Shown here: in pieces, positions 7,606-20,480 of the stretch
Position numbering within the stretch: position 1 is the stretch's first letter
Layout: each line of letters starts with the position of its first letter
Assembly: GCA_001931875.2 (NCBI GenBank)
Contig: MSJH02000614.1
Location: 62,001 to 126,000, forward strand
Length of the DNA stretch: 64,000 bases
Source of the DNA: Byssochlamys sp. IMV 00236
Lineage: Eukaryota > Ascomycota > Eurotiomycetes > Eurotiales > Thermoascaceae
Direction of reading: 5' to 3'
The notes under the pieces: model-generated
What the model was told of the DNA's origin: nothing
The model's input: the letters and a program-made list of their open reading frames with translations, nothing else
Database searches by the model: none
Position numbers and translations under genes: made by a program

Positions 7606-9780
7606 ATGGCGAAGATCAAGAAGAAGGGTGCGTTCCAGGCCATCATGCGCTCCATGAGGGTAATTGCTAATTCTCCACAGGCACGTCTGGTCAGGCGAAA
7701 AACTACATCACCAGAACGCAGGCAGTGCGCAAGCTTCAGATTTCCCTGCCTGATTTCCGAAGGCTATGCATCTTCAAGGGTATGCAAATTTTTCCTCGCC
7801 ATACCTGCGGATAAATAGAATGCTCACATATCGAGATCTTCAGGTATCTATCCCCGTGAGCCTCGTAACAAGAAGAAGGCGTCCAAGACCGCGACTCCGA
7901 ATACTACTTTCTACTACACGAAAGATATCCAGTATCTTCTTCATGAGCCACTGCTCAGAAAGTTTCGCGATCAGAAGGCGCTCTCCAAGAAGATCGCACG
8001 GTCCCTGGGTCGAGGAGAAGTTGGCGATGCCGCTCGTTTGGAAAAGAACAACGCCCCCAAGCTCACTCTCGACCACATCATCAAGGAGCGATACCCGACC
8101 TTCATCGATGCGCTAAGAGATCTCGATGATGCTCTTTCGCTTCTGTTCCTTTTCGCGAACCTTCCGTCTGACGCCAATGTGCCCCCAAAGACGATCGCAC
8201 TGTGTCAGCGCTTGTGCCATGAGTTCCAGCACTACCTTATCACCACCAATTCGCTTCGAAAGTCGTTCCTGTCCATCAAGGGTATCTACTACCAAGCGAC
8301 TATCCAGGGCCAGGATATCATGTGGCTTGTCCCCTACCGCTTTGTCCAGAAAGTCAGCGGAGATGTCGACTACCGGATAATGGCCACCTTCGTTCAGTTC
8401 TACACCACTCTACTCGGCTTTGTCAACTTCAGACTCTACTCATCAATTGGTCTTGTGTATCCGCCGAAGTTCGACACTCGCAGTGATGAAAATGGTGCAG
8501 AGCTGGCGGCATTCTCCCTGGAGGGCAAGCAGGTCAGTGCTCTCAAGGCGATTGAAGCCAAAGGCTCCCAGGCCAATGGCCATGCAGACAAGGAAGTCTC
8601 GCGTGAGATCCAGGAGAAGGTGGACAGTATGATCAAGACTGCTGCGCTGGACGAGGAACCCGAGGAGCAGGTGGTCGAGGCGGAGGAAGCGAACGAAGAC
8701 GCGATCGATAAGTTCGAGCCCGCAGCACCGGAAGCCGACACGCTTCCTCAACCAGGGCTAAGTGGCAACGAAGCTGGTTCCCTTTTCGCGCCTTTCACTT
8801 TTTTCATCTCTAGAGAGGCTCCTCGAGGCCCACTTGAGTTCATCCTGCGTGCGTTCGGCTGCAAGCGTATCGGATGGGATCCAGTCCTAGGTGACGGTGC
8901 CTTCACGACGGACGAGTCCGACCCGAGGATCACTCACCAGATCGTCGACCGGCCGCCTCTTCCTGAGTCATCTCTCCCTTCTATCCCTGACGATAAGAAG
9001 GATGGAGCTGTTCAGAAGATCAGACCTGGAATGCGTGTCCCAGGAAGGACGTACATCCAGCCCCAGTGGGTTTGGGACTGTATCAACGAAGAAAAACTGC
9101 TTCGTCCTGATCTCTACGCACCTGGTGCTACTCTTCCACCCCACCTAAGCCCCTGGGTGAAGCCGAGCAAGGGTGCCTACGATCCTCGTGCCAGCCTTGC
9201 TGAGCAGGAGGAAGAAGACGAAGCCGAGATGTCTGCCGAGGAAGAGGATGAGGAGGAAGACAAGAGCGACGAGGAAATGGAGGATGCCCCCAAGGAGAAG
9301 AAGAAACAATCTTCCAAAGCCGTGGAGGAGTCTGAAGAAGATGACGAGGACGATGAGTCCGTCGATGGCGGCATGGATATCGAACTCGCAAATTCGGACG
9401 AAGATGAGAGTGACAGTGAGAGTGATGAGGAAGATGAAGAATTCGACGGATTCGAGGAGGAGGCCGCGTCTGAGTCGGAAGATGAGGAAGAGGCCGCTCG
9501 TACCCAGCACCAGAAGGAACTTGAGGCCGAGGCTGCTGGTCTTCCTTACACCGCAGGCAGCGGTGCGGATAAGGGCAAGAAGCAATCTGCCCAGTCAAAG
9601 AAGCATGCAGCCAAGAAGCGCAAGGAAGAGGAGGAGCTGGAGAGACAGAAGATGATGATGAGCCGGAAGAAGCGCAAGCTTCTGGATAAGATGCTCTACT
9701 CCAACAAGAAGAAGGACGCGGAGGCTCAGAAGCTGCGTAGCAAGAGAAGGAAGATCGAGAAGGCCGCGGCAAAGGCGTAG
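7606..9780 (+). CDS. nop7: Pescadillo homolog Nop7, 60S ribosome biogenesis
   Basis: Nop7 is the scaffold of the PeBoW complex (with Erb1 and Ytm1), needed for 27S pre-rRNA processing in the nucleolus. Exons 7606-7627, 7681-7779 and 7844-9780 encode 685 residues. The N-terminal pescadillo domain starts [20 protein letters not shown], and the tract [24 protein letters not shown] is diagnostic. A BRCT domain spans roughly residues 349 to 470, including FGCKRIGWD and the conserved Trp in [14 protein letters not shown]. It is followed by a very acidic Glu/Asp/Ser tract and a Lys/Arg-rich coiled coil, the usual tail of fungal Nop7. Both introns sit very early, a common pattern in highly expressed ribosome-biogenesis genes. 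Confidence 0.97.
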
Positions 9781-10167: not shown

Positions 10168-10869
10168 ATGAGAGCGAGGCCCCTTCTCCTGGCTGGGGGG
10201 AACTCATCACGAATGGGGTTTCCAAAGCATCTACTGCGTCTTCCGGACGGAGAACTTTTGTATAGGCGTCTTCTCAGCCTTCTCGGTGAAGCTTCATCTG
10301 AACAAGATGTTCTCTACATGTCATTGAAGGACAAGGCGGCCCTAGAGCAATTACTTCGGGAGGATCCATATGCCGAATTAATTTCTAGCGATACATTATT
10401 GCTTCCTGGAAAGACCCAATACACCGTTAGGGTGCTATATGACGAAGATTCTGGTTCCCAAGATGGAGCTGTGACTCATAAATTAGTCGATATTGGCCCA
10501 GCTGCAGGGCTGCTGGCTGCTCATCACCATGACCTCGAGAGCTCCTGGCTAATAGTGGCCTGCGACTATCCATTACTCACTATTTCTCCTCTGCAGCAAT
10601 TACTGCACGAGTTCGAAGAGCCAGTGACTTGTTTCCGGAATTCGGCTGGTTATTGTGAGCCGCTGTTGGCTGTCTGGAGCCCTGGTGCGCTTCAGAGATT
10701 GCAGCAGAACGTGCTCCAAGGAAAATGCGGGCCAAGTTTCGTTGTGAAAGAGTTGAAAGGGAAGATGCTTCGACCCGACCATGAGGTATGGCTATTTAAT
10801 GCCAACAATAAGGAGGAATGGAAGAGCTTCGAAACTTATGCCCGCTTGACAATGTCAACTCCTGAGTAA
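10168..10869 (+). CDS. MobA-like molybdenum cofactor guanylyltransferase
   Basis: The predicted enzyme would transfer GMP from GTP to molybdopterin to make the guanine dinucleotide cofactor (MGD). It is an intronless frame of 233 residues from ATG 10168; an in-frame ATG at 10105 would add 21 residues. The N-terminus shows the NTP-transferase signature LLLAGGNSSRMGFPKHLL, matching LAGGxSxRMGxxK of MobA. DIGPAAGLLAA and the metal-site-like WLIVACDYPLL also fit MobA. Known eukaryotic molybdoenzymes use plain or sulfurated molybdopterin, so a MobA is unexpected and fits the bis-MGD oxidoreductase 3 kb away. The 3' ends of this gene and the MoeA gene overlap by 15 bases. Other nucleotidyltransferases (MocA, IspD-like) are possible, but the context favours MobA. 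Confidence 0.82.
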   Translation: MRARPLLLAGGNSSRMGFPKHLLRLPDGELLYRRLLSLLGEASSEQDVLYMSLKDKAALEQLLREDPYAELISSDTLLLPGKTQYTVRVLYDEDSGSQDGAVTHKLVDIGPAAGLLAAHHHDLESSWLIVACDYPLLTISPLQQLLHEFEEPVTCFRNSAGYCEPLLAVWSPGALQRLQQNVLQGKCGPSFVVKELKGKMLRPDHEVWLFNANNKEEWKSFETYARLTMSTPE

Positions 10870-12294
10870 AGCAGCGAGGCCATGTTCCTGCTTGCAGATG
10901 GGGTATACATCCAAGGCATCACCATCTTTCAACTCCGTATGTCCTCTTGGTATATGGATCCAGCAATCCGCACCAAGAAAAGGCTTTATTTTCCCGGGGC
11001 TGTGGTCGTGGATGATCTCAACTTCAAACTTATCACTCTGCTGAAGTGTGAAGCGTCCTGCGCGAAATACGTCTGTGTTAGGAGGGAGTCGCGCAATGAG
11101 ATCACTTGCTTCTCCTATATTACACGTCTTTTCTCCTTTCAATGGTAAGTTTCCATCCCTGATAGTCGCTTTCATGGGTCTCTCCGGTCGCTCTGAGAGC
11201 AACTTCCGAAGTAAAGGGACCACGAGAAAACGGAGACAAGCAGCGCTGGCCACAGGATTACCCGGTAATCCCAAGAATGCCGTACTTGTCTGTTTATTCA
11301 ATGGATAATCTCTGTTTCCTGCACTGTCATATCGTCCAGCGGGTAGAGTCGCAAATAATACAGGGTGTCCTGGTCGAATTGCAGCTCCATGGAACAACAC
11401 CTTAGCACCGACACTTTCGATTGCCTTCCTAACGAAATCGAATTTGCCAGCAGATACTCCTCCGGTTGTCATGAGGATATCGTATTCTCGAAGCTGAAGT
11501 TGTTGCATGATCCTTCCAGACACAGCAGAGGCATTATCGTCAATGACGCCCAGGAAGTCCACATCGCATCCCCAGTCCATCAAACTAGCGGTGATACAAG
11601 GCCCGTTGATATCCATTATCCGCTGTGCATCACTCTGAGCACCATCGTTGTGGAGCAATTCCTTCCCTGTTGAAAACACGGCTATTCGTGGCTTCCTGCG
11701 TACTGCAATCTTCTCAACACCGATAGACGCGAGTGCCATCAGATGATTGATCTTGACACAGTCTCCAGCATCTATAATGTTATCCCCTTGCTGGAAATCG
11801 TTTCCTGCAAATCTTCGATTCATGCCTTTCCTAGCAGGTTTCAGCACTTGGATAATCTTCCCTCCAGGTTCCATCCTCGTATCCTCCACTTTCACGCAAC
11901 AATCAAACTCTCTTCCATTTACACAGGTCGGGAACCTAGCTCCTGTCATGATCTCGACACACGGATATATATCCCCGTCAGGCTCGCCGCGAACTTCAAC
12001 AGGGGAATCACCGGCCGCCGACGTTCCCATGACACAGAATCTCACTGGCTTTTCAGGCGAAGCAGTTGCTGCAACCTCCGAGTTTAGTGCATATCCATCC
12101 ATTGCCGATGTGTCAAATTTAGGTGTTGACTCGGGACTAACATAATTGCGACTTGAGATACGATTGAGCGACAATGGCAAAGGGACGAGTTCCTCGAAAT
12201 TGGTAGATGAAGATGATAACTTAGATGCTTCTGCCTCAATGATCTTTAAGGCCTCGGGATACGACAACGAAGCTCCTTCAGATTTACCTATCAT
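10855..12294 (-). CDS. Stand-alone MoeA-like molybdopterin molybdenumtransferase
   Basis: MoeA inserts molybdate into adenylated molybdopterin. One intronless frame gives 479 residues. The signature DTSAMDGYAL lies at residues 61-70. MTTGGVSAGKFDFV is the MoCF-biosynthesis motif, GLPGNPVASA is the conserved loop, and the C-terminal domain IV is present. The usual fungal and animal enzyme (CnxE, gephyrin) fuses MogA and MoeA; this protein lacks a MogA half, as in bacteria. That suggests an extra copy dedicated to the neighbouring module. It converges on the MobA-like gene with a 15-base coding overlap. Its upstream side faces about 900 bases without genes and then the oxidoreductase. I infer shared function from adjacency and pathway. 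Confidence 0.9.
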   Translation of the reverse strand: MIGKSEGASLSYPEALKIIEAEASKLSSSSTNFEELVPLPLSLNRISSRNYVSPESTPKFDTSAMDGYALNSEVAATASPEKPVRFCVMGTSAAGDSPVEVRGEPDGDIYPCVEIMTGARFPTCVNGREFDCCVKVEDTRMEPGGKIIQVLKPARKGMNRRFAGNDFQQGDNIIDAGDCVKINHLMALASIGVEKIAVRRKPRIAVFSTGKELLHNDGAQSDAQRIMDINGPCITASLMDWGCDVDFLGVIDDNASAVSGRIMQQLQLREYDILMTTGGVSAGKFDFVRKAIESVGAKVLFHGAAIRPGHPVLFATLPAGRYDSAGNRDYPLNKQTSTAFLGLPGNPVASAACLRFLVVPLLRKLLSERPERPMKATIRDGNLPLKGEKTCNIGEASDLIARLPPNTDVFRAGRFTLQQSDKFEVEIIHDHSPGKIKPFLGADCWIHIPRGHTELKDGDALDVYPICKQEHGLAALLRS

Positions 12295-13193
12295 TGTATC
12301 AATAGAATAATGTGTTCAAACGGACAGACCTAGGAAACGATCTATTCTTTCTGATAGTATCTTAGCATGAATGTAAATTCATCTTCGACCAAGCACAGCT
12401 GGACTCGACTTTCCCACAGGAGAACCCCCTCTCCCTTAGAAACCCTTCCTCATCACGTCTGCAAATTCCGAAATGCGATCGCCAACTTTCATTTCGAGGC
12501 ACGTCTTCAATCATGGTGACGTACGTTTCGCACACAATCTACTTATCCGTAACGGACATAAATCTTGGCTATAGTAAAGTTTAGACTCCCGTCAACGGCT
12601 AAGTGGTACTGCATATACATGACTAGCTAGCATTTCCACCGAGGTAATATATGACGTTGAGTAAGCTATGCCTCATCCCAGGTTCCGGATATCTGGTTCC
12701 GTGGGGAAGCGCCTGGGGCATTCAAAAGCTTAACCCCGCCAGATAGCCAATACTGTTCGGCTCGTGTCAAATCCTACCTATTCTCTATGGAAATGAATTA
12801 TTAATTCTAGTATCAGGTTCGCGGCCTTCGTCCGATGTTGGGCGTTTCAACTCTGCTCTCTCCGCGGAGATAGAAGAGCCAGCAACTCGCACGGATCACG
12901 ACAGCTCCAATGAAGATGTTCTTTATTTCCAGGATTAGTGACGTGCATTCCAAGGACATGGTTTCGTGCTTATGGGTATATGGTATTCATAATGTAATTA
13001 AAACTATGGGATGTCATCGAACTCTCCGGATATTATCCCCGGGTGGAGAAAAGAGGATATCATTGGCGTAGACCATCGCCATATGGTTAACTATTCTTTC
13101 GAGCTCGGACATCGAAACTCACAGTCCAAGCTTGATACCTCGTGTATTAAAATCAAGTTTTGACTCAAGTAGCATGGGATCTAGTGTATGATC
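12295..13193. other. Intergenic, no supported gene
   Basis: I looked here for FdhD, MogA or another cofactor gene and found no open frame of useful size on either strand. It should contain the MoeA promoter and the oxidoreductase 3' end. Confidence 0.55.
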
Positions 13194-16100
13194 CTACGCG
13201 CGCAACGAGTCTGCCAGTTTGCGCGCGTCTTCTTCAAAGACGCTTCCGACAGTCTCATCGGTAGGGTCCATTGGCACGAGTAGTCTCTGCGGGGCCTTAG
13301 TCTTCATTTGCTGCGTGGTCCAACTCTTCATCCTCGTGATTTGTTGTTGAGAGAATTTGACTGCCTCGAAGAAGTTCTCGTCCCACATCGCTTGGCTCGC
13401 GGGGTGCAGCGCAACGAGGTGGCCATCGATATGGCAGAGATACATGTAGAACGCTTGCAGAGCAGTCAGGGCTTCGTACGGCTCGTGGTCGCTGTTGCGA
13501 TCTAGTGCTGGAAACAGGTTGTCGCGAACTCTGCGCGACACGGATTCACCGAAGACTTTTTGTTCCTTGTATGTATCGACGACTGGGGCGAGCCGTTCCT
13601 GTATAGACTCAGCTATGCGTTCCATGACTTTCATCCCGCCCCGGATTTCCATATCATGGATGAGCGTGGGTATCAGCTGAGAACAGATCTCCTTCAGGAT
13701 CTGGATGGCTTCGAAAATTGTCCCGAGCCACAGCTCAAGCCTGCGTGTCCTCTCCACTTTATGCTTTACCAATTGTGCCGTTGGTTTTTCCGTCTGGACT
13801 TTCCGAACAGATGCAGAATGTTGCTCTCGGGCATGAATCTTAACCTGTCCTGGCTCGATCTTTTCGATGCGAACTGCCCCCGACTTGAAGGTTGGTTGCT
13901 TCGAAATTGGGTCCCATCGTTCTGGAGCGTTGATGTTAGACTTTCGTAGGACTCAATCATATTGGTGTGCAAATCTGACCTATTGTCAACTCATTGGCTG
14001 CCCTGGATTTGCCGTCTGTAGAATCAAAGTATCCAAAGTGAAAGGGAATGAAAGCTTGTCCTGGAGCGATATCCCCGACTGAAGCTCTCATCTCGACCGC
14101 TCCCCTCCTCGATCTGACCACCACCTCATCTCCATCTTGAACATTGAACTTGACAGCATCGTCTTTGGAAATACGGATAGTAGGTTCGGGACAAGCTTCC
14201 TGCAGCGGTTTCGATCTCCCCGTTTTGGTTCTCGTATGAAAATGGTAGACATTGCGTCCTGTCGACAGTCGAATTGGATAGTTCTCATTGGGCTCTTCTG
14301 GGTCAGGAAAGTAATTTGCTGATTTGAGAATCGCTCTACCGCCTGGATTTATCGATTGGTAGTCTTCTTTGGAAAGCGGCGCACCTGTCTCGAGGTCGTG
14401 ACCAAAGCTTTCGCAATAGTCAATGTCAGTGAAGAAGACGGCATCGTCAAATAGTCTTTCTTTTCCGTAAGGGTAGGTGTCGTTGCAGGGCCACTGGATG
14501 CCAGAGCCTCCTGTCAGCTTTTCATATGACAGACCACTGTAGTCGCATGGACGACCTTTAGACAGCTTCTTCCAGGCACAGAAGACCTCCTCTGGTGTAC
14601 TGAAAGGTAGCAGGTCATTGCCATCCTTATCTTTGAAGTCCATTCTCCTTCCGAAATCGAGAAAGATATCCAAGTCAGCCCGTGCCTCTCCTGGAGGATT
14701 GACAGCCTTGTGCGATAGATGTACTGTCCGGTCAGCGTTCGTAAAGCAGCCAGTTTTCTCACCCCATTGCGCTGCAGGTAGGACCACATCTGCGATCTGA
14801 GCAGTTTCAGTGAGATAAATATCCTGGCAGATTACAAACAGATCCGGCTTCGTAAGGCATTTTCGTGCCATGGTAAGATTTGGCAAGCTGACGAGAGGAT
14901 TCGTTCCTGATACCCAGAACATCTCGATTGACCCTTCGTCAATGTACGTGAGCATATTTTCTATATGGGTCGGCTCTGCCCAGTGCGGAACTCGTAGAGG
15001 GTCTATATTCCACACGTCGGCAATTTCCTTGATATGATTCGGATTCTGAAAATTCCTGAAGCCTGGAAATTCCCCATCGCAGCCGGCCTCGCGGTTATTC
15101 TGTGCTGTTGGCTGGCCGTTCATTTGCAGTATCCCGCTCCCTGGTCTGCCGATGAGGCCACGGAGAAGATTAATATTGTTAATCTGGCAAGCGGCTGCAG
15201 TTGCTTGGTTAGATTGATAGACTCCCTGCAGGGCAGTGGACAACATCGTCTTTGTTGTGCCGATTATCTGAGCAGCTTCCTCCAACTTTCCTTTCGGGAC
15301 ACCAGTTATCTGCTCAACGAACTCTGGGGTATACTTTTCAACTGTTTCTTTAAGTTCCTGGCTGCCGACTGTATGTTTCGTGACCCAGTCGTCATCTATC
15401 CAACCGTTTTTGTACATCAGGTGTTCGATACCATTCAATACAGCGACATTCGTGCCAATTTTAGGCGCTAGATGAACAGTAACTCTTTTTGCCGTTTCAG
15501 ATTTTCTAGGGTCGACAACAATCAGCTTCGGTGGATTGGGACCGTCCAACCTATCCAGGATACGCGCCCACAGAACAGTTTGTGTAGCAGACACGTTGTG
15601 GCCGACTATGAATAGACAGTCCGTATAATCAACATCTGCGTACGATCCAGGCTGCCCGTCGGATCCAAAAGACTCTCGCATGGAAGCAGCTGCAGTAGCG
15701 GTGCACAGACGGGTATTCCCATCCCTATATACGCAGTCAGCTGCACTGATAAATGATATAATAGTTACGACTTACATGTGAAGTGCATTTAATCCTGCCT
15801 TTCCAATCATTGCAAGGGCATAATATTCTTCGAGGAAAAGCTGCCCAGACGTGTAGAAGGCGATTCCATGGCTGGTTAGGCGTCGACGAATATCTTTCGC
15901 TTTTTCCACGATAAGTGACATTGCCTCATCCCAGGACGTCTTGACGAGTTTCCCATTCTTCCGTATCAATGGATGGGTAAGACGATCTGGATGATTGATA
16001 GCTGTCCATCTGTACACAGATTAATACTCCCCTCAAATCGACTTGAAAACGATCCATTTACCCATTCAGCCCCTTAGGTCCTAAACGGCCTTTGTTGACT

Positions 16101-16378
16101 CGATCAACAACACGTCCTCTGACACCAACTACTTTTCCGTCCTTGACTCCAATGTCTAATCCACATCCATTGCTATGTTGAAAGTCAGCACACTCAGACA
16201 ATACTCTGCACAATCAGATTGACAGTTCAAACCTGCACAGAACGCAAGCACTCTGCACCCATTTATCAGGCTCATCCAAAAGATATGCATCCTCTCTTTG
16301 AGGCCATTGGTGTTTATAGGGCTGTCGAGAGCCCCAGATGTCTTCAATTGAATTTCTGCTTTGGTAATAGGGAACCAT
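13194..16378 (-). CDS. Mo-bis-MGD oxidoreductase (FdhF/NasA superfamily) with C-terminal extension
   Basis: Five exons (16233-16378, 16062-16172, 15776-16009, 13980-15724, 13194-13921) join in frame to 987 residues. The first 800 or so residues are a molybdopterin oxidoreductase: an N-terminal iron-sulfur motif CVLCSNGC (Cys45, 48, 52), PDRLTHPLIR, a predicted Mo-ligand Cys171 in TRLCTATAAAS, GQPTAQNNREAGCDGEFPGF, SGTNPLVSLP, QDIYLTETAQIADVVLPAAQ and WGEKTGCFTNADRTVHLS. The C-terminal cofactor-binding domain ends NELTIERWDPISKQP, restored only after removing a 58-base intron. The fourth Cys expected near residue 80 is Gly (RLGPKG). The residue after the Mo-ligand Cys is Thr, not the His of formate dehydrogenases. 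From about residue 800 an unassigned, mostly helical extension follows. No targeting peptide is obvious. The start at 16378 is the first ATG after an in-frame stop. Confidence 0.88.
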
Positions 16379-16660
16379 ATTTGCTGCACCGATGCCGCCA
16401 GAGCAACAATCGGGCGAGCTCTCTCAGCAAATAAGTTACCAGGTATTCATAAAACTAACAGTCCCGCGGAGAACCCGAAACGCGGGGAATTCTTGACATT
16501 TTCTTGGAACGTGATGTCAATGCGACGCACGTACATCACTTAATGGGTCGAAATGCGAAGCCGACGCGATCCGCTAAGCTTTGTGCGCTTGGCTAAAAAT
16601 CACTGTAAATATTATATACAGTAAATGGGAGGACCGCATTGCAAGAAGGGGATCGCAGAA
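16379..16660. promoter_or_regulatory. Shared divergent promoter region, oxidoreductase and TDT transporter
   Basis: The two start codons face away from each other with 282 bases between them, so both promoters must lie here. The spacing suggests co-regulation. I did not find a site I could assign to a named regulator. Confidence 0.5.
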
Positions 16661-17933
16661 ATGAGCGAAACTGGTGGGAGTCAAAGACGAGCACTGCAAC
16701 ACCCATCAAACCCAGCAGCTCTGGCTTTGTGGAATTTCTCTTCGCAGTGGTTCCTAGTTCCGCAAGGCACAGGAATAATTGCGGTGACACTTCACCAATT
16801 GGATTATCAATTCCACGGGTTGAAAACCATATCACAGATAGTCTGGGTATACACGATCGTGTTGCTGTCGTCCTTTGTCTTTCTCTACCTGCTCAGGATT
16901 CTTTTGTACCCGAGACATGTGGCCAATCGGCTGCGAACGAGCATTATCGAGACATCATGCCTGGCTAGCATTTCTATCAGCTTCGAGACAATAATTCAAA
17001 TGATCGCACTGTCGATAGTGCATGACTGGGGACCGGCCTGGGGCATTGTCGCTTATGTTCTGTGGTGGACCGATACAGCCATGGCGGTTGTCTCATGTAT
17101 AGGAATTCCCTATGTATTTGTGAAATTACAACCCCCAGGAATCCATGCAGTTACCCCGTCTATCCTGCTGCCTCTTATTGCAGCTCTCACTTCAGCCGCT
17201 GGAGGAGGTATCATATGCAGGTATGGTGCCATCAGTGACCGGCTCCAAGTTCCAGTTATTGTCGTGGCATACCTGGAAATGGGAGTTGGGATTCCACTAG
17301 CGATGAGTTTTGATACCATATTCTTATCAAGACTCTTCAACAAGTCGTTTCCAGATATCGAAAAGATCTATCAGGACATGATATTATGCGGTCCTTTTGG
17401 ACAAGCAAGTTTCGCGCTGGAGATACTCGGCCACGCTGTGTCGAGAAATAGCTTCGCGAGGTACAATAAAGGAGAATTCTTGACTGCGAACGCGGCTACT
17501 CCAATAGCGTTTGCAAGTCAGTTTGCTGGCTTGCTTTCATGGGGATACGGGACGTTCTGGTGGTGCTTTGCTATCATCAGTATCGTGCATACTGTAATCG
17601 CTCAGCCTGGCGGCTGGAGAAAAACCAAGTTCAGCATGTCCGCGTGGGCTTTGATTTTCCCATGGGTAAGTCACATCCATTGTTGCGGAGAGGGCAGGTT
17701 CATAGTAACCAAGAAACTAGGGAGTTTACACCAACGCTGCAGTCCACTTGGGGCTACTTCTCGATTCACCAGCCTTCAAAGCCTGGTCGACGGCCCTGCT
17801 GATCATGCTTGTTGTGATGTGGATAATAGAGCATATCTTGACTATAAAGGGTCTTATCACTGGAAAGGTGCTGGGTCTTGATCGGGGCTGGAAAACGACT
17901 TATGACGATGACGATGATACCCATAATAAATAG
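16661..17933 (+). CDS. TDT/SLAC1-family anion transporter (Mae1/Ssu1-like)
   Basis: A membrane carrier of the tellurite-resistance/dicarboxylate transporter family, which includes Mae1 malate permease, Ssu1 sulfite pump and plant SLAC1 anion channels. Exons 16661-17665 and 17721-17933 encode about 405 residues; an in-frame ATG at 16625 would add 12. About ten hydrophobic segments are seen. Family features include the early WNFSSQWFLVPQGTGIIAV, a helix ending in a charged VHDWGPAW loop, a WWTDTAMAV segment, and FSMSAWALIFPWGVYTN across the intron. The C-terminus is short, acidic and cytosolic. Substrate cannot be told from sequence: sulfite, malate or another small anion are all possible. Because it shares a promoter with the bis-MGD enzyme, formate or another oxyanion substrate is a hypothesis. 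Confidence 0.85.
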
Positions 17934-18662: not shown

Positions 18663-20480
18663 ATGTCCGCGTCGTCGCAGCAACGTCCAGATCATGAATA
18701 TCCTCCCCAATCGGCTCAACCCTATCGTTCCATATTTGGATCGAGCAGTCAGCCTGTTGAACATGACGAGGCCAGAGAGTCTGACCATGACGTGGATATC
18801 GAAGATGTACTAAATGAGGAGCTACCTCCTATGGGTGATGACTCTGATGATGCGACATACGACGCGAGTGACGAAGACGCGCCTCTTCCTGAGAGGCGCA
18901 GTACGGTGGAAAACAAAGCCAAGGAAAAGAAGAAAGCAAAATACAAGGCGTCCATTTCGTATAGTGATACAGACATTTATCGTTCGGAGTCACCACCTGT
19001 GCATCGACCAAATAGGTACCATGGTCCTACCTCTACTTGGCGCTTATGGACTCAGAAAGAGCGTCAAGTTGCTGAATCCCTGGAGATCATACGTGCCAGA
19101 GATCTCTCAGCTCATCTGTTCAATGCTCATGCGCTGAAACGACGGGCCAGAGAGATTCGAAAGAGAATTGCTGAAAATGGCAGCCAGGAAGAGGAAGAGA
19201 CGGCGTTTGTCCCAGGCAAGCTGTGGACAGCATGGCCTATGCCACCTGAGGAAGTTCCCAGGTTGGATGAATCGCTGATCAACGACAACGATGATATATA
19301 CACGATTAAAAGAGCGCCGGATATCAGACCAAGTGCTCCGTTAGAAGAATCTCTCATAGCCGTGATGCTGAAGATTTCGAAGGAACGGTTCCAAGCTAGG
19401 GAAGAGATGCCGAAGAGTTATGTTTGGCACAAGAGAGAGAGTTCTCGTGGATACGATACTACGGAGGCATCTGGAAATGAAGGCGGCTGGAAGAGTGAAC
19501 CGGATACTGCAGAAGGTATCCAATATCGCCCAGTAGTTCAAGCGGACGATGAGACGTCTCGACGACAACTACGGCCTCTGACACGACAAACTTTGAGTCG
19601 GTTAGACTCACTTCTAATGAGTTTACACCACGCGCGGAAAGCTAGTATGGTCCCAGACGAGAGTTCTGCCAGCGAGAGACAGTCTGAGGCAGAGAGCTTG
19701 GCTTCTCGTCTATCATCACCCAGAAAGAGGAGAGGGACAAGCACACTCGAAAGGGGTCAATCAAGAGGGAGAAAGAGAGCTCGTGCATCCTCTCGCAGCC
19801 AAAGCAGAAAAAGAGCTGCCTCAAACCCCGAAGAGGCTCCAGAATATGCGATAGACTCTTCTGAGTCTGATTCGTCTGCTTCCGAGACTTCACGTCCTTC
19901 AAAGCGAGAGTCGACAAGGACACCGGTCTCCTTGTCACGAAGTCGTTCAAGGGTTGGAGGGCGGTCAGCAAGACTCGCTATAAGGGATTGGAGCGATGTT
20001 CTCGGAATCGCTTCCATGACCGGGTGGCCTTCCGAAGTGGTAATGCGCGCCGCACGACGATGTGCTGATTTATTCGGCGAGGACATGACTTTCCAGACAT
20101 TGAGCGAAGGAGCCGTACGGAAGACGAAGTCTACGGATGGAAGAGATCTATGGAAGTATTCGGCCAGCGAAGAAGAAGAGCCGCCTGCTCCCAAGCTCAA
20201 ACGTACGCGGTCCCGCGCGCAGTCTACCAAAGGAGAGAGCAGTCGAGCAGCGTCTGTAGTTGCGAAAGAGGACGGTGAAGAGCAGAGCGCAGTAAGGCCG
20301 TTCAAAGGCAAAGGAGAGCACCGCAAGAAGGATCTTGTGTGTCCTGTGAAGGGTTGCAGTAGACATACCGATGGTTTCACACGCACGTGGAATTTGAACT
20401 TGCATATGAAAAGAGTCCATCCGTCACACCCGTTGAGGAGTGGGAATAAATCAAACCCTGTAACGGACGATGATGGCTAG
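18663..20480 (+). CDS. Rrn9-domain RNA polymerase I factor with C2H2 finger
   Basis: An intronless frame of 605 residues. The segment from about residue 123 to 195 (TWRLWTQKERQVAESLEIIR through DLSAHLFNAHALKRRAREI to GKLWTAWPMPPEEVP) matches the Rrn9 domain of the yeast upstream activation factor, which recruits RNA polymerase I to rDNA. It is flanked by an acidic N-terminus and long Ser/Arg/Glu-rich disordered regions. A single C2H2-like finger closes the protein (Cys560, Cys565, His581, His586), a feature I do not know from yeast Rrn9. The predicted location is nucleus or nucleolus. Identification rests on the Rrn9 domain alone; other functions remain possible. Confidence 0.75.
   Translation: MSASSQQRPDHEYPPQSAQPYRSIFGSSSQPVEHDEARESDHDVDIEDVLNEELPPMGDDSDDATYDASDEDAPLPERRSTVENKAKEKKKAKYKASISYSDTDIYRSESPPVHRPNRYHGPTSTWRLWTQKERQVAESLEIIRARDLSAHLFNAHALKRRAREIRKRIAENGSQEEEETAFVPGKLWTAWPMPPEEVPRLDESLINDNDDIYTIKRAPDIRPSAPLEESLIAVMLKISKERFQAREEMPKSYVWHKRESSRGYDTTEASGNEGGWKSEPDTAEGIQYRPVVQADDETSRRQLRPLTRQTLSRLDSLLMSLHHARKASMVPDESSASERQSEAESLASRLSSPRKRRGTSTLERGQSRGRKRARASSRSQSRKRAASNPEEAPEYAIDSSESDSSASETSRPSKRESTRTPVSLSRSRSRVGGRSARLAIRDWSDVLGIASMTGWPSEVVMRAARRCADLFGEDMTFQTLSEGAVRKTKSTDGRDLWKYSASEEEEPPAPKLKRTRSRAQSTKGESSRAASVVAKEDGEEQSAVRPFKGKGEHRKKDLVCPVKGCSRHTDGFTRTWNLNLHMKRVHPSHPLRSGNKSNPVTDDDG

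Follow-up and report, generated by a model that had tools for sequence, protein, structure and literature searches.

Can a fungus make and use bis(molybdopterin guanine dinucleotide) (bis-MGD), when reviews, in the passages available to us, confine molybdopterin guanine dinucleotide (MGD) and the dimethyl sulfoxide (DMSO) reductase family to prokaryotes and describe fungal MoeA as fused or lost? The question is raised by four consecutive genes at 10168–17933 of a 64,000-nucleotide stretch of Byssochlamys sp. IMV 00236 (contig C613 of assembly G000; hereafter the window, to which all coordinates refer). Flanked by the housekeeping genes Pescadillo (8038–9780) and RRN9 (18663–20480), they encode, in order, a MobA-like protein (+), a MoeA-like protein (-), an oxidoreductase (-) and a SLAC1 channel (+). 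An earlier note made from the letters alone had read this row as MobA, MoeA without MogA, a bis-MGD-superfamily oxidoreductase and an anion transporter, and our domain matches and gene models bore out all four. We found that many fungi keep the genes for MobA, the unfused MoeA and the bis-MGD-superfamily enzyme as neighbours, and judging from their sequences we think it probable that this cluster constitutes a second branch of molybdenum-cofactor metabolism, serving a bis-MGD enzyme that would reduce nitrate or a similar oxyanion.

In the passages of the sources available to us, eukaryotes are said to make only enzymes of the sulfite oxidase (SO) and xanthine oxidase (XO) families (PMC9103625), the most diverse molybdenum/tungsten (Mo/W) enzyme family is called exclusive to prokaryotes (PMC10609526), as is the DMSO reductase family (PMC4633490), and fungal MoeA is described as kept fused or lost in a set of 171 fungal genomes (PMC11733289); fungal molybdenum insertases were fused in the sample of a further study, which has exceptions in other groups (PMC13262936). 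The main text of a paper on the origins of DMSO reductases (PMC7331816) is without the stem ‘eukaryot’ and the words ‘fungi’ and ‘fungal’, and a molybdenum-use survey, as described in the part available, sought eukaryotic molybdoenzymes with SO, XO and mARC proteins (PMC6147048), queries by which a fungal enzyme of bis-MGD type would be missed. The leading matches in the open-licence PubMed Central literature, most subscription papers, preprints and supplements lying outside its reach, described no fungal MGD enzyme, and the available portions of PMC9751292, PMC12482460, PMC6650914 and PMC6321594 do not mention one. The fungal family is already named in databases, as ‘nitrate reductase’, ‘periplasmic nitrate reductase’ or ‘4Fe-4S Mo/W bis-MGD-type’; it is thus annotated, with no description found in that open-licence literature.

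Gene models and their neighbourhood in fungi

The features of the block are as follows.

10168–10869, + strand: MobA-like molybdenum cofactor guanylyltransferase, 233 residues, intronless (Pfam NTP_transf_3, E 2.7e-19)
10855–12294, - strand: unfused MoeA-like molybdotransferase, 479 residues, intronless (PF03453, PF00994, PF03454)
12860–12869, no strand: palindromic NirA-consensus site CTCCGCGGAG, counted twice, ~570 bp upstream of MoeA
13194–16378, - strand: DMSO-reductase-superfamily oxidoreductase, 987 residues, five exons (PF04879, PF00384, PF01568)
16378–16233, 16172–16062, 16009–15776, 15724–13980 and 13921–13194, - strand: oxidoreductase exons of the gene model
16173–16232, - strand: oxidoreductase intron 1, 60 nt, GT-AG
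16010–16061, - strand: oxidoreductase intron 2, 52 nt, GT-AG
15725–15775, - strand: oxidoreductase intron 3, 51 nt, GT-AG
13922–13979, - strand: oxidoreductase intron 4, 58 nt, GT-AG, with a CTAAC branch-site-like sequence inside
13194–13921, - strand: last oxidoreductase exon, C-terminal helical domain, homologous to a separate bacterial protein of usually ~152 residues
16379–16624, no strand: 246 bp separating the divergent oxidoreductase and SLAC1 genes, with a NirA-consensus site at 16464–16471
16625–17933, + strand: SLAC1/TDT-type anion channel, exons 16625 (or 16661)–17665 and 17721–17933 (PF03595, E 4.2e-66, in the ORF 16625–17881)

The MobA and MoeA genes lie tail to tail, their 3' ends sharing 15 nt. 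The introns that the earlier note had inferred for the oxidoreductase number four; the channel gene has a single one (17666–17720) and the MobA and MoeA genes have none. The spliced oxidoreductase model and a deposited Paecilomyces variotii protein (P0001) are identical throughout their 987 residues, and it was a scan of this deposited protein that found the iron-sulfur (Fe-S) domain PF04879 alongside PF00384 and PF01568.

A search for enzyme homologues gave 7,926 matches, the best 120 of which were listed, and all 77 of the listed proteins that carry an organism name are fungal: Ascomycota, two Basidiomycota (Crassisporium and Filobasidium) and one chytrid (Rhizophlyctis), with several rows coming from one species and with lineages looked up for Rhizophlyctis and Saitoella and otherwise judged from the names. 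Most of these models (70 of 77) have at least 900 residues; the other seven have 721–899.

As proxies for linkage we took from the homologue lists (for the enzyme as above; the best 120 of 132 and of 3,411 for the cofactor genes) a longest contig of equal size and ordered locus tags. At least one pair among the enzyme, MobA and MoeA genes fell on an equal-sized contig in 25 of the 27 comparable fungal species, although this contig exceeds 1 megabase in four of the 25, so that linkage is weak there. By pair, the agreement was 13/14 species for enzyme and MoeA, 7/7 for enzyme and MobA, and 9/10 for MoeA and MobA; the co-occurrence that the earlier note had offered as a check holds, pair by pair, by this proxy. 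In six of seven cases the ordered locus tags followed directly on each other or differed by two (Helicocarpus AJ79_03241 to 03243, Onygenales PD_40, Penicillium ucsense, Trapelia, Dothideomycetidae sp. 11243 and Paecilomyces lecythidis), with the reservations that the printed contig sizes of Onygenales PD_40 differ despite its close tags and that the tags of Dothideomycetidae sp. 11243 run in tens. The exception was Penicillium IBT 35674x, in which enzyme and MoeA are 290 tags apart on one contig; the protein numbers in the style of the Joint Genome Institute (A. multicolor, A. oleicola) were left out of this count. A deposited 1,241-residue model of Monosporascus sp. GIB2 (P0057) joins the enzyme and MoeA domains, either as a true fusion or as an annotation merge of neighbours.

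The MobA-like and MoeA-like proteins

The MobA-like protein scored below the cut-offs of the NCBIfam MobA models (40.4 bits against 151.85 for TIGR02665, 59.3 against 164 for NF001457) and above MocA. Its AlphaFold2 model, built on a 25-row alignment, had a predicted local distance difference test score (pLDDT) of 91.4, and its nine best Foldseek matches were all of MobA type (E 2e-10 to 1.5e-8), followed by GlmU (5.9e-8). The stretches LAGG-SSRMG, GPAAG, CDYP and EPL are kept in nearly all 25 aligned rows, and MobA proteins of bacterial genomes share them with changes. Compared with E. coli MobA, the protein has the same predicted fold, and its LAGGxSSRMG, GPAAG, CDxP and NxN stretches are much as in bacterial MobA proteins; however, the identity over the structural match is only ~19%, the fungal protein belongs to a Bacteroidota-type subgroup, and the four genes include no MobB. 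When a fungal MobA profile was run against 34 enzyme-bearing genomes it matched with E-values of 1.8e-18 or less in 10 of 11 Bacteroidota, and with none better than 1.2e-8 in the other 23. A 31-row MobA tree, in which long branches were flagged and some Bacteroidota with later-found MobA matches are not included, placed the 22 fungal rows in a clade (100/100) nested within Bacteroidota rows, the support being 93/98 (not starred) for fungi with four Bacteroidota and 96/81 with Niastella added.

The MoeA-like protein carries the domains MoeA_N, MoCF_biosynth and MoeA_C, the last weakly (E 2e-6), and the active-site motifs of MoeA; it lies below the NCBIfam MoeA equivalog cut-off (230.1 against 440 bits, NF007960) and lacks the fused MogA (G) domain of CnxE and gephyrin. 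This genome also has a fused CnxE, as the earlier note had described for fungi, so that both kinds occur side by side: on contig C811 a MogA-like stretch (184871–185134) is followed on the same strand by an E domain, with the end of the G domain in the reading frame of the E domain. The two share the MoeA domains, whereas the cluster MoeA is without MogA and stands apart in phylogeny, 19 fungal cluster MoeA rows forming a clade (100/100) on a long branch away from this fungus’s own CnxE E domain and from 28 bacterial rows. They differ also in the PGxP motif, which has His in every one of the 12 rows of fungal cluster MoeA examined (nine with RPGHP, three with KPGHP) and in none of the 13 CnxE and bacterial rows (KPGKP in the CnxE of this genome; K in eight, R in two, Q in one and G in one of the 12 bacterial rows). 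From its sequence, PGHP is a possible mark of specialised molybdenum insertion.

The earlier note had taken the block for a self-contained unit, a description that found no support: none of its four genes makes molybdopterin and a genome-wide search gave no other MogA-type match on the contig of the cluster, so that molybdopterin must come from the host pathway. The ordinary molybdoenzymes lie elsewhere, with niaD on contig C802, bearing Mo-co (molybdenum cofactor) dimerisation and cytochrome b5 parts and separate from the cluster; C805 carries a sulfite-oxidase-like gene, and C498 a third match to PF00174, a weak one. PF00384 matched at two places in the genome, the cluster gene and a gene on C834 whose top NCBIfam match was NuoG of complex I (211 bits on a piece, below cut-off). 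The assembly itself has 47.4 Mb in 840 contigs and contains pairs of identical stretches (C223/C367, our L085–L088, and C121/C740, our L090 and L091); C223 and C367 hold a second CnxE-like gene that is built differently. The duplicated stretches and the assembly size suggest a second organism or duplicated contigs in G000.

The oxidoreductase: descent, active site and bacterial relatives

A 90-row enzyme tree comprising 38 of the 120 listed proteins and 52 of 80 prokaryotic loci gathered 33 fungal or fungal-like rows into one clade, with a support of 100 in the Shimodaira–Hasegawa-like approximate likelihood ratio test (SH-aLRT), while five environmental rows fell among bacteria. The clade returned with 100/100 in a slower 50-row tree (15 fungal rows), and the Pezizomycotina enzymes grouped with 100/100, leaving the Saitoella, basidiomycete and chytrid rows outside. 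Bacterial relatives are 48–64% identical in their best segments, and the fungal enzyme does not group with Bacteroidota. As the branches adjoining the fungal clade in the 50-row tree have supports of 80/73, 84/65 and 83/38, and as one of the five outgroup rows is faulty (four held together; the fifth, L172, is in a wrong frame with a branch length of 10), we do not claim an exact bacterial sister. A fused-type enzyme from a supposedly archaeal Methanomicrobiales metagenome-assembled genome (MAG; L007), on a 4,555-base contig that may be mis-binned, adjoins the fungal clade with weak support (80/73).

Taken together, the trees fit, without proving, a single acquisition of the enzyme, before Dikarya began to spread or at an early point of that spread, with mostly vertical descent and losses afterwards. 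We had considered a fungus-to-fungus transfer into Paecilomyces, because the 50-row tree placed P. variotii with Sordariomycetes (99/97); however, a denser fungal tree, in which eleven Sordariomycetes grouped (87/55) and eight Eurotiomycetes grouped (99/97), left P. variotii and two other Eurotiomycetes rows unplaced and did not reject a single Eurotiomycetes clade (approximately unbiased test, p-AU 0.368), and the idea was dropped. Support is good both for the module and for its prokaryotic kinship. The bacterial descent proposed in the earlier note therefore stands in part, the trees assigning prokaryotic kinship to the enzyme and MobA, whereas the MoeA tree does not place the origin of that gene; its picture of one bacterial block is not supported, with MobA Bacteroidota-like, the enzyme not with Bacteroidota and MoeA on a long separate branch.

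The enzyme has the architecture of the DMSO reductase superfamily (PF00384 and PF01568, with PF04879) and aligns end to end with periplasmic nitrate reductase (2jim/2nap), whose DGNPRLCMASA..SFGKD...GTYADID corresponds to DGNTRLCTATA..SFGSD...GSYADVD in the fungal protein and whose GQP...R stretch faces GQPTAQNNRE. Both landmarks of NapA and NasA, the molybdenum-ligand Cys and the conserved Arg of the GQPxA...R stretch, are present: Cys171, at the ligand position, is kept in 32 of 33 fungal rows (one gap) and in all 57 prokaryotic rows (from 52 loci, plus five environmental proteins), and Arg375 in 33/33 and 57/57. Of the cysteines of a [4Fe-4S] cluster C45, C48 and C52 are present and the fourth is Gly80, again in 32 of 33 fungal rows (one gap) and in 56 of 57 prokaryotic ones; with glycine in this position a [3Fe-4S] or unusual cluster is expected. 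The enzyme thus shares with NapA and with NasA/NasC the three domains, the Cys at the ligand position, DGN-RLC and the GQPxA...R stretch, and it differs in this Gly, in a Thr after the ligand Cys, in an extra C-terminal helical domain, in having no visible leader, in falling far under the equivalog cut-offs and in coming from a eukaryote. As no leader was seen by eye at the N terminus, it probably works in the cytosol. In seven actinobacterial proteins (L041, L060, L071, L072, L074, L080 and L082) the three N-terminal cluster cysteines are replaced by Thr/Ser, His and Asp, which suggests that the Fe-S cluster has been lost in part of the family. In Filobasidium floriforme (P0109) Tyr and Ser replace two of the three cluster cysteines, and this protein may be degenerate, mis-modelled or functionally changed.

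We surveyed 79 prokaryotic loci with an open reading frame (ORF) for the enzyme, using all ORFs; an initial clustering of neighbours by greedy ORF calling suffered from antisense artefacts in high-GC (guanine–cytosine) genomes and was replaced by the all-ORF version. In 44 of the 79 loci (25 genera) the gene directly downstream of the enzyme specifies a small homologous protein, usually of ~152 residues and with a 4-nt overlap in 11, which is fused as a C-terminal domain in other bacterial loci and in the 14 fungal rows aligned, some listed fungal models being shorter. This protein, encoded for example at L037:10326–10784, matched no Pfam family in the one member scanned. A model of a small bacterial homologue (16 rows, pLDDT 88.8) was a four-helix bundle resembling bacterioferritin, symerythrin and YciF, with a best Foldseek E-value of 5.9e-3 (template modelling score 0.74) and none reaching 0.001; the C-terminal domain is predicted to be ferritin-like.

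Anion carriers recur at these loci. Membrane proteins of the HPP family occur in 17 of the 79 (11 genera), 16 of the 17 within 700 bp of the enzyme, and SLAC1-type channels in eight. Those eight belong to Bacteroidota, which account for 15 of the loci, and none lies more than 700 bp from the enzyme; one of the eight ORFs is a 150-residue piece. Outside Bacteroidota the carriers are of the HPP kind. Pfam matches confirmed both kinds, and a Pfam scan of flanking ORFs (138 of 170 ORFs, from 26 of 30 non-actinobacterial loci chosen at one per named genus) gave HPP six times, SLAC1 four times and a voltage-gated chloride channel twice among the 25 of 164 families shown. The Arabidopsis HPP protein AtNITR2;1 is described, in the part of the source available, as a candidate nitrite transporter whose affinity was high on expression in a cyanobacterium (PMC4137279). 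The bacterial ‘molybdopterin oxidoreductase’ clade (Hymenobacter, Massilia, Nitrospira, Micromonospora and others) agrees with the fungal enzyme in subfamily, fourth-position Gly, LCT motif, a small helical partner, separate or fused, and anion carriers nearby; the fungal gene differs in its introns, its fused small domain and the MobA and MoeA genes next door. A cofactor operon beside a bacterial enzyme, which was not sought at every locus, was seen in a Myxococcota MAG (L003:3601–11350), where the enzyme and HPP genes are divergent from moaA, a MoaC-MoCF_biosynth fusion, a MOT1 molybdate transporter gene and moeA.

Nitrate, formate or another substrate

The cluster is real, old and widespread in fungi, and in its sequences it looks like a eukaryotic bis-MGD system, whose cofactor, substrate and electron donor we infer. 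In the scheme that we favour, the ordinary fungal pathway would make molybdopterin, the unfused MoeA (or CnxE) would insert molybdenum, and the MobA homologue would add guanosine monophosphate to give bis-MGD, which the oxidoreductase would bind through its dinucleotide-binding domain and Cys171. With a site like that of NapA and NasA (DGN-RLC, GQPxA...RE) this putatively cytosolic enzyme would reduce nitrate or a similar oxyanion, its electrons passing through a cluster held by three cysteines only, and nitrate or nitrite, as the anion consumed or produced, would cross a membrane through the divergent SLAC1 channel.

The promoters may point the same way. The NirA consensus, given as CTCCGHGG in the available parts of PMC3020322 and PMC5348485, occurs six times in the window against 2.87 expected, and four of the six matches (three places) are inside the cluster, one of them within the enzyme gene; the site at 16464–16471, between the divergent enzyme and SLAC1 genes, has a chance of ~0.011. 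At the niaD locus, a positive control, there were three sites against 0.32 expected. As support for a nitrate link these sites are weak, because such sites stand upstream of more than 800 A. nidulans genes (PMC3020322, in the part available). This frequency is one of several observations that weigh against the nitrate scheme: six NirA sites were reached in 11 of 100 shuffles of the window, the 246-bp divergent stretch contains no GATA site, and the main text of the A. nidulans nitrate transcriptome paper (PMC3020322) lacks the stem ‘molybd’. The fungus already has an ordinary nitrate reductase, the linkage of SLAC1 was, among fungi, read in this genome only, the fungal counts covering enzyme, MobA and MoeA, and seven of the 57 prokaryotic rows, all Actinomycetota, are without the other three cluster cysteines, which makes the electron path uncertain. 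Cofactor and activity are, moreover, deduced from sequence throughout.

How far do other explanations account for the same data? That the protein is a formate dehydrogenase or CO2 reductase, oxidising formate with bis-MGD in the cytosol while the SLAC1-type channel moves formate, gains from two scores that tell against nitrate: the best match in the PDB was FdhF of hydrogen-dependent CO2 reductase (387.9 bits, versus 372.6 for NapA), and the NCBIfam formate dehydrogenase alpha model ranked first (501.2 bits, below its cut-off of 666.25). However, the Cys/Sec-His pair of formate dehydrogenases is absent (LCTAT here, LCHAP in FdhF), PLRGQNN is replaced by the nitrate-reductase-like NGQPTAQNNRE, and a genome search that was positive in 8 of 14 control genomes found no FdhD-type (FdhD-NarQ) gene, and we regard this explanation as unlikely. 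We give a better, although still minor, chance to a reductase that uses bis-MGD but acts on another substrate (such as chlorate, selenate or an N-oxide), or to a non-redox member of the superfamily, with the carriers exporting a toxic product. Here the Met that follows the ligand Cys of NapA is replaced by Thr in 32 of 33 fungal and all 57 prokaryotic rows, a further point against a plain nitrate reductase; the family falls under every NCBIfam cut-off shown (for nitrate reductases NasC 421.7 of 1100 bits, NasA 367.7 of 1000, and NapA 321.8 of 930.55 and 339.7 of 904), and the Fe-S cysteines are gone in one actinobacterial group. Against this, the HPP and SLAC1 linkage and the NirA site agree best with nitrate or nitrite, and the 25 neighbour families shown, of 164, include no other conspicuous gene that is specific to a substrate.

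Two further alternatives concern the cofactor and the origin of the block. The enzyme could hold bis-molybdopterin that bears no nucleotides, a cofactor reported for E. coli YdhV in the available part of PMC9103625, the MobA-like protein then having another job; its scores under the MobA equivalog cut-offs would agree with this, but the joint presence of MobA, MoeA and enzyme in many fungi, the best structural matches being MobA, and the dinucleotide-binding domain PF01568 make it very improbable. One might suspect that the block came in as bacterial contamination or by a recent transfer to one strain, or that it is a decaying relic, given an assembly that is large for the species, its duplicated contigs and its second CnxE-like gene. 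This suspicion is refuted by the four spliceosomal introns and open 987-residue frame, by the housekeeping genes on both sides, and by the fungal homologues (the identical P. variotii protein and the 77 organism-named rows), and we assign it a negligible probability.

On balance we therefore favour, with reserve, the proposal that fungi possess a working bis-MGD pathway together with an enzyme of the DMSO reductase family, as the first eukaryotes known to do so, arising by one gain of the enzyme (before or early in Dikarya), a MobA of Bacteroidota type and a second, specialised MoeA, in a cluster with an anion channel and linked to nitrate or nitrite beside NiaD. What our analysis adds to the earlier note is the spread of the genes among fungi, the linkage to carriers in bacteria and the fusion of the small subunit. 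If the enzyme holds bis-MGD, the border between eukaryotes and prokaryotes in molybdenum biochemistry would shift, and many fungi, species of Aspergillus, Fusarium and Colletotrichum among them, would have an overlooked enzyme that may act in nitrate, nitrite or nitric oxide metabolism.

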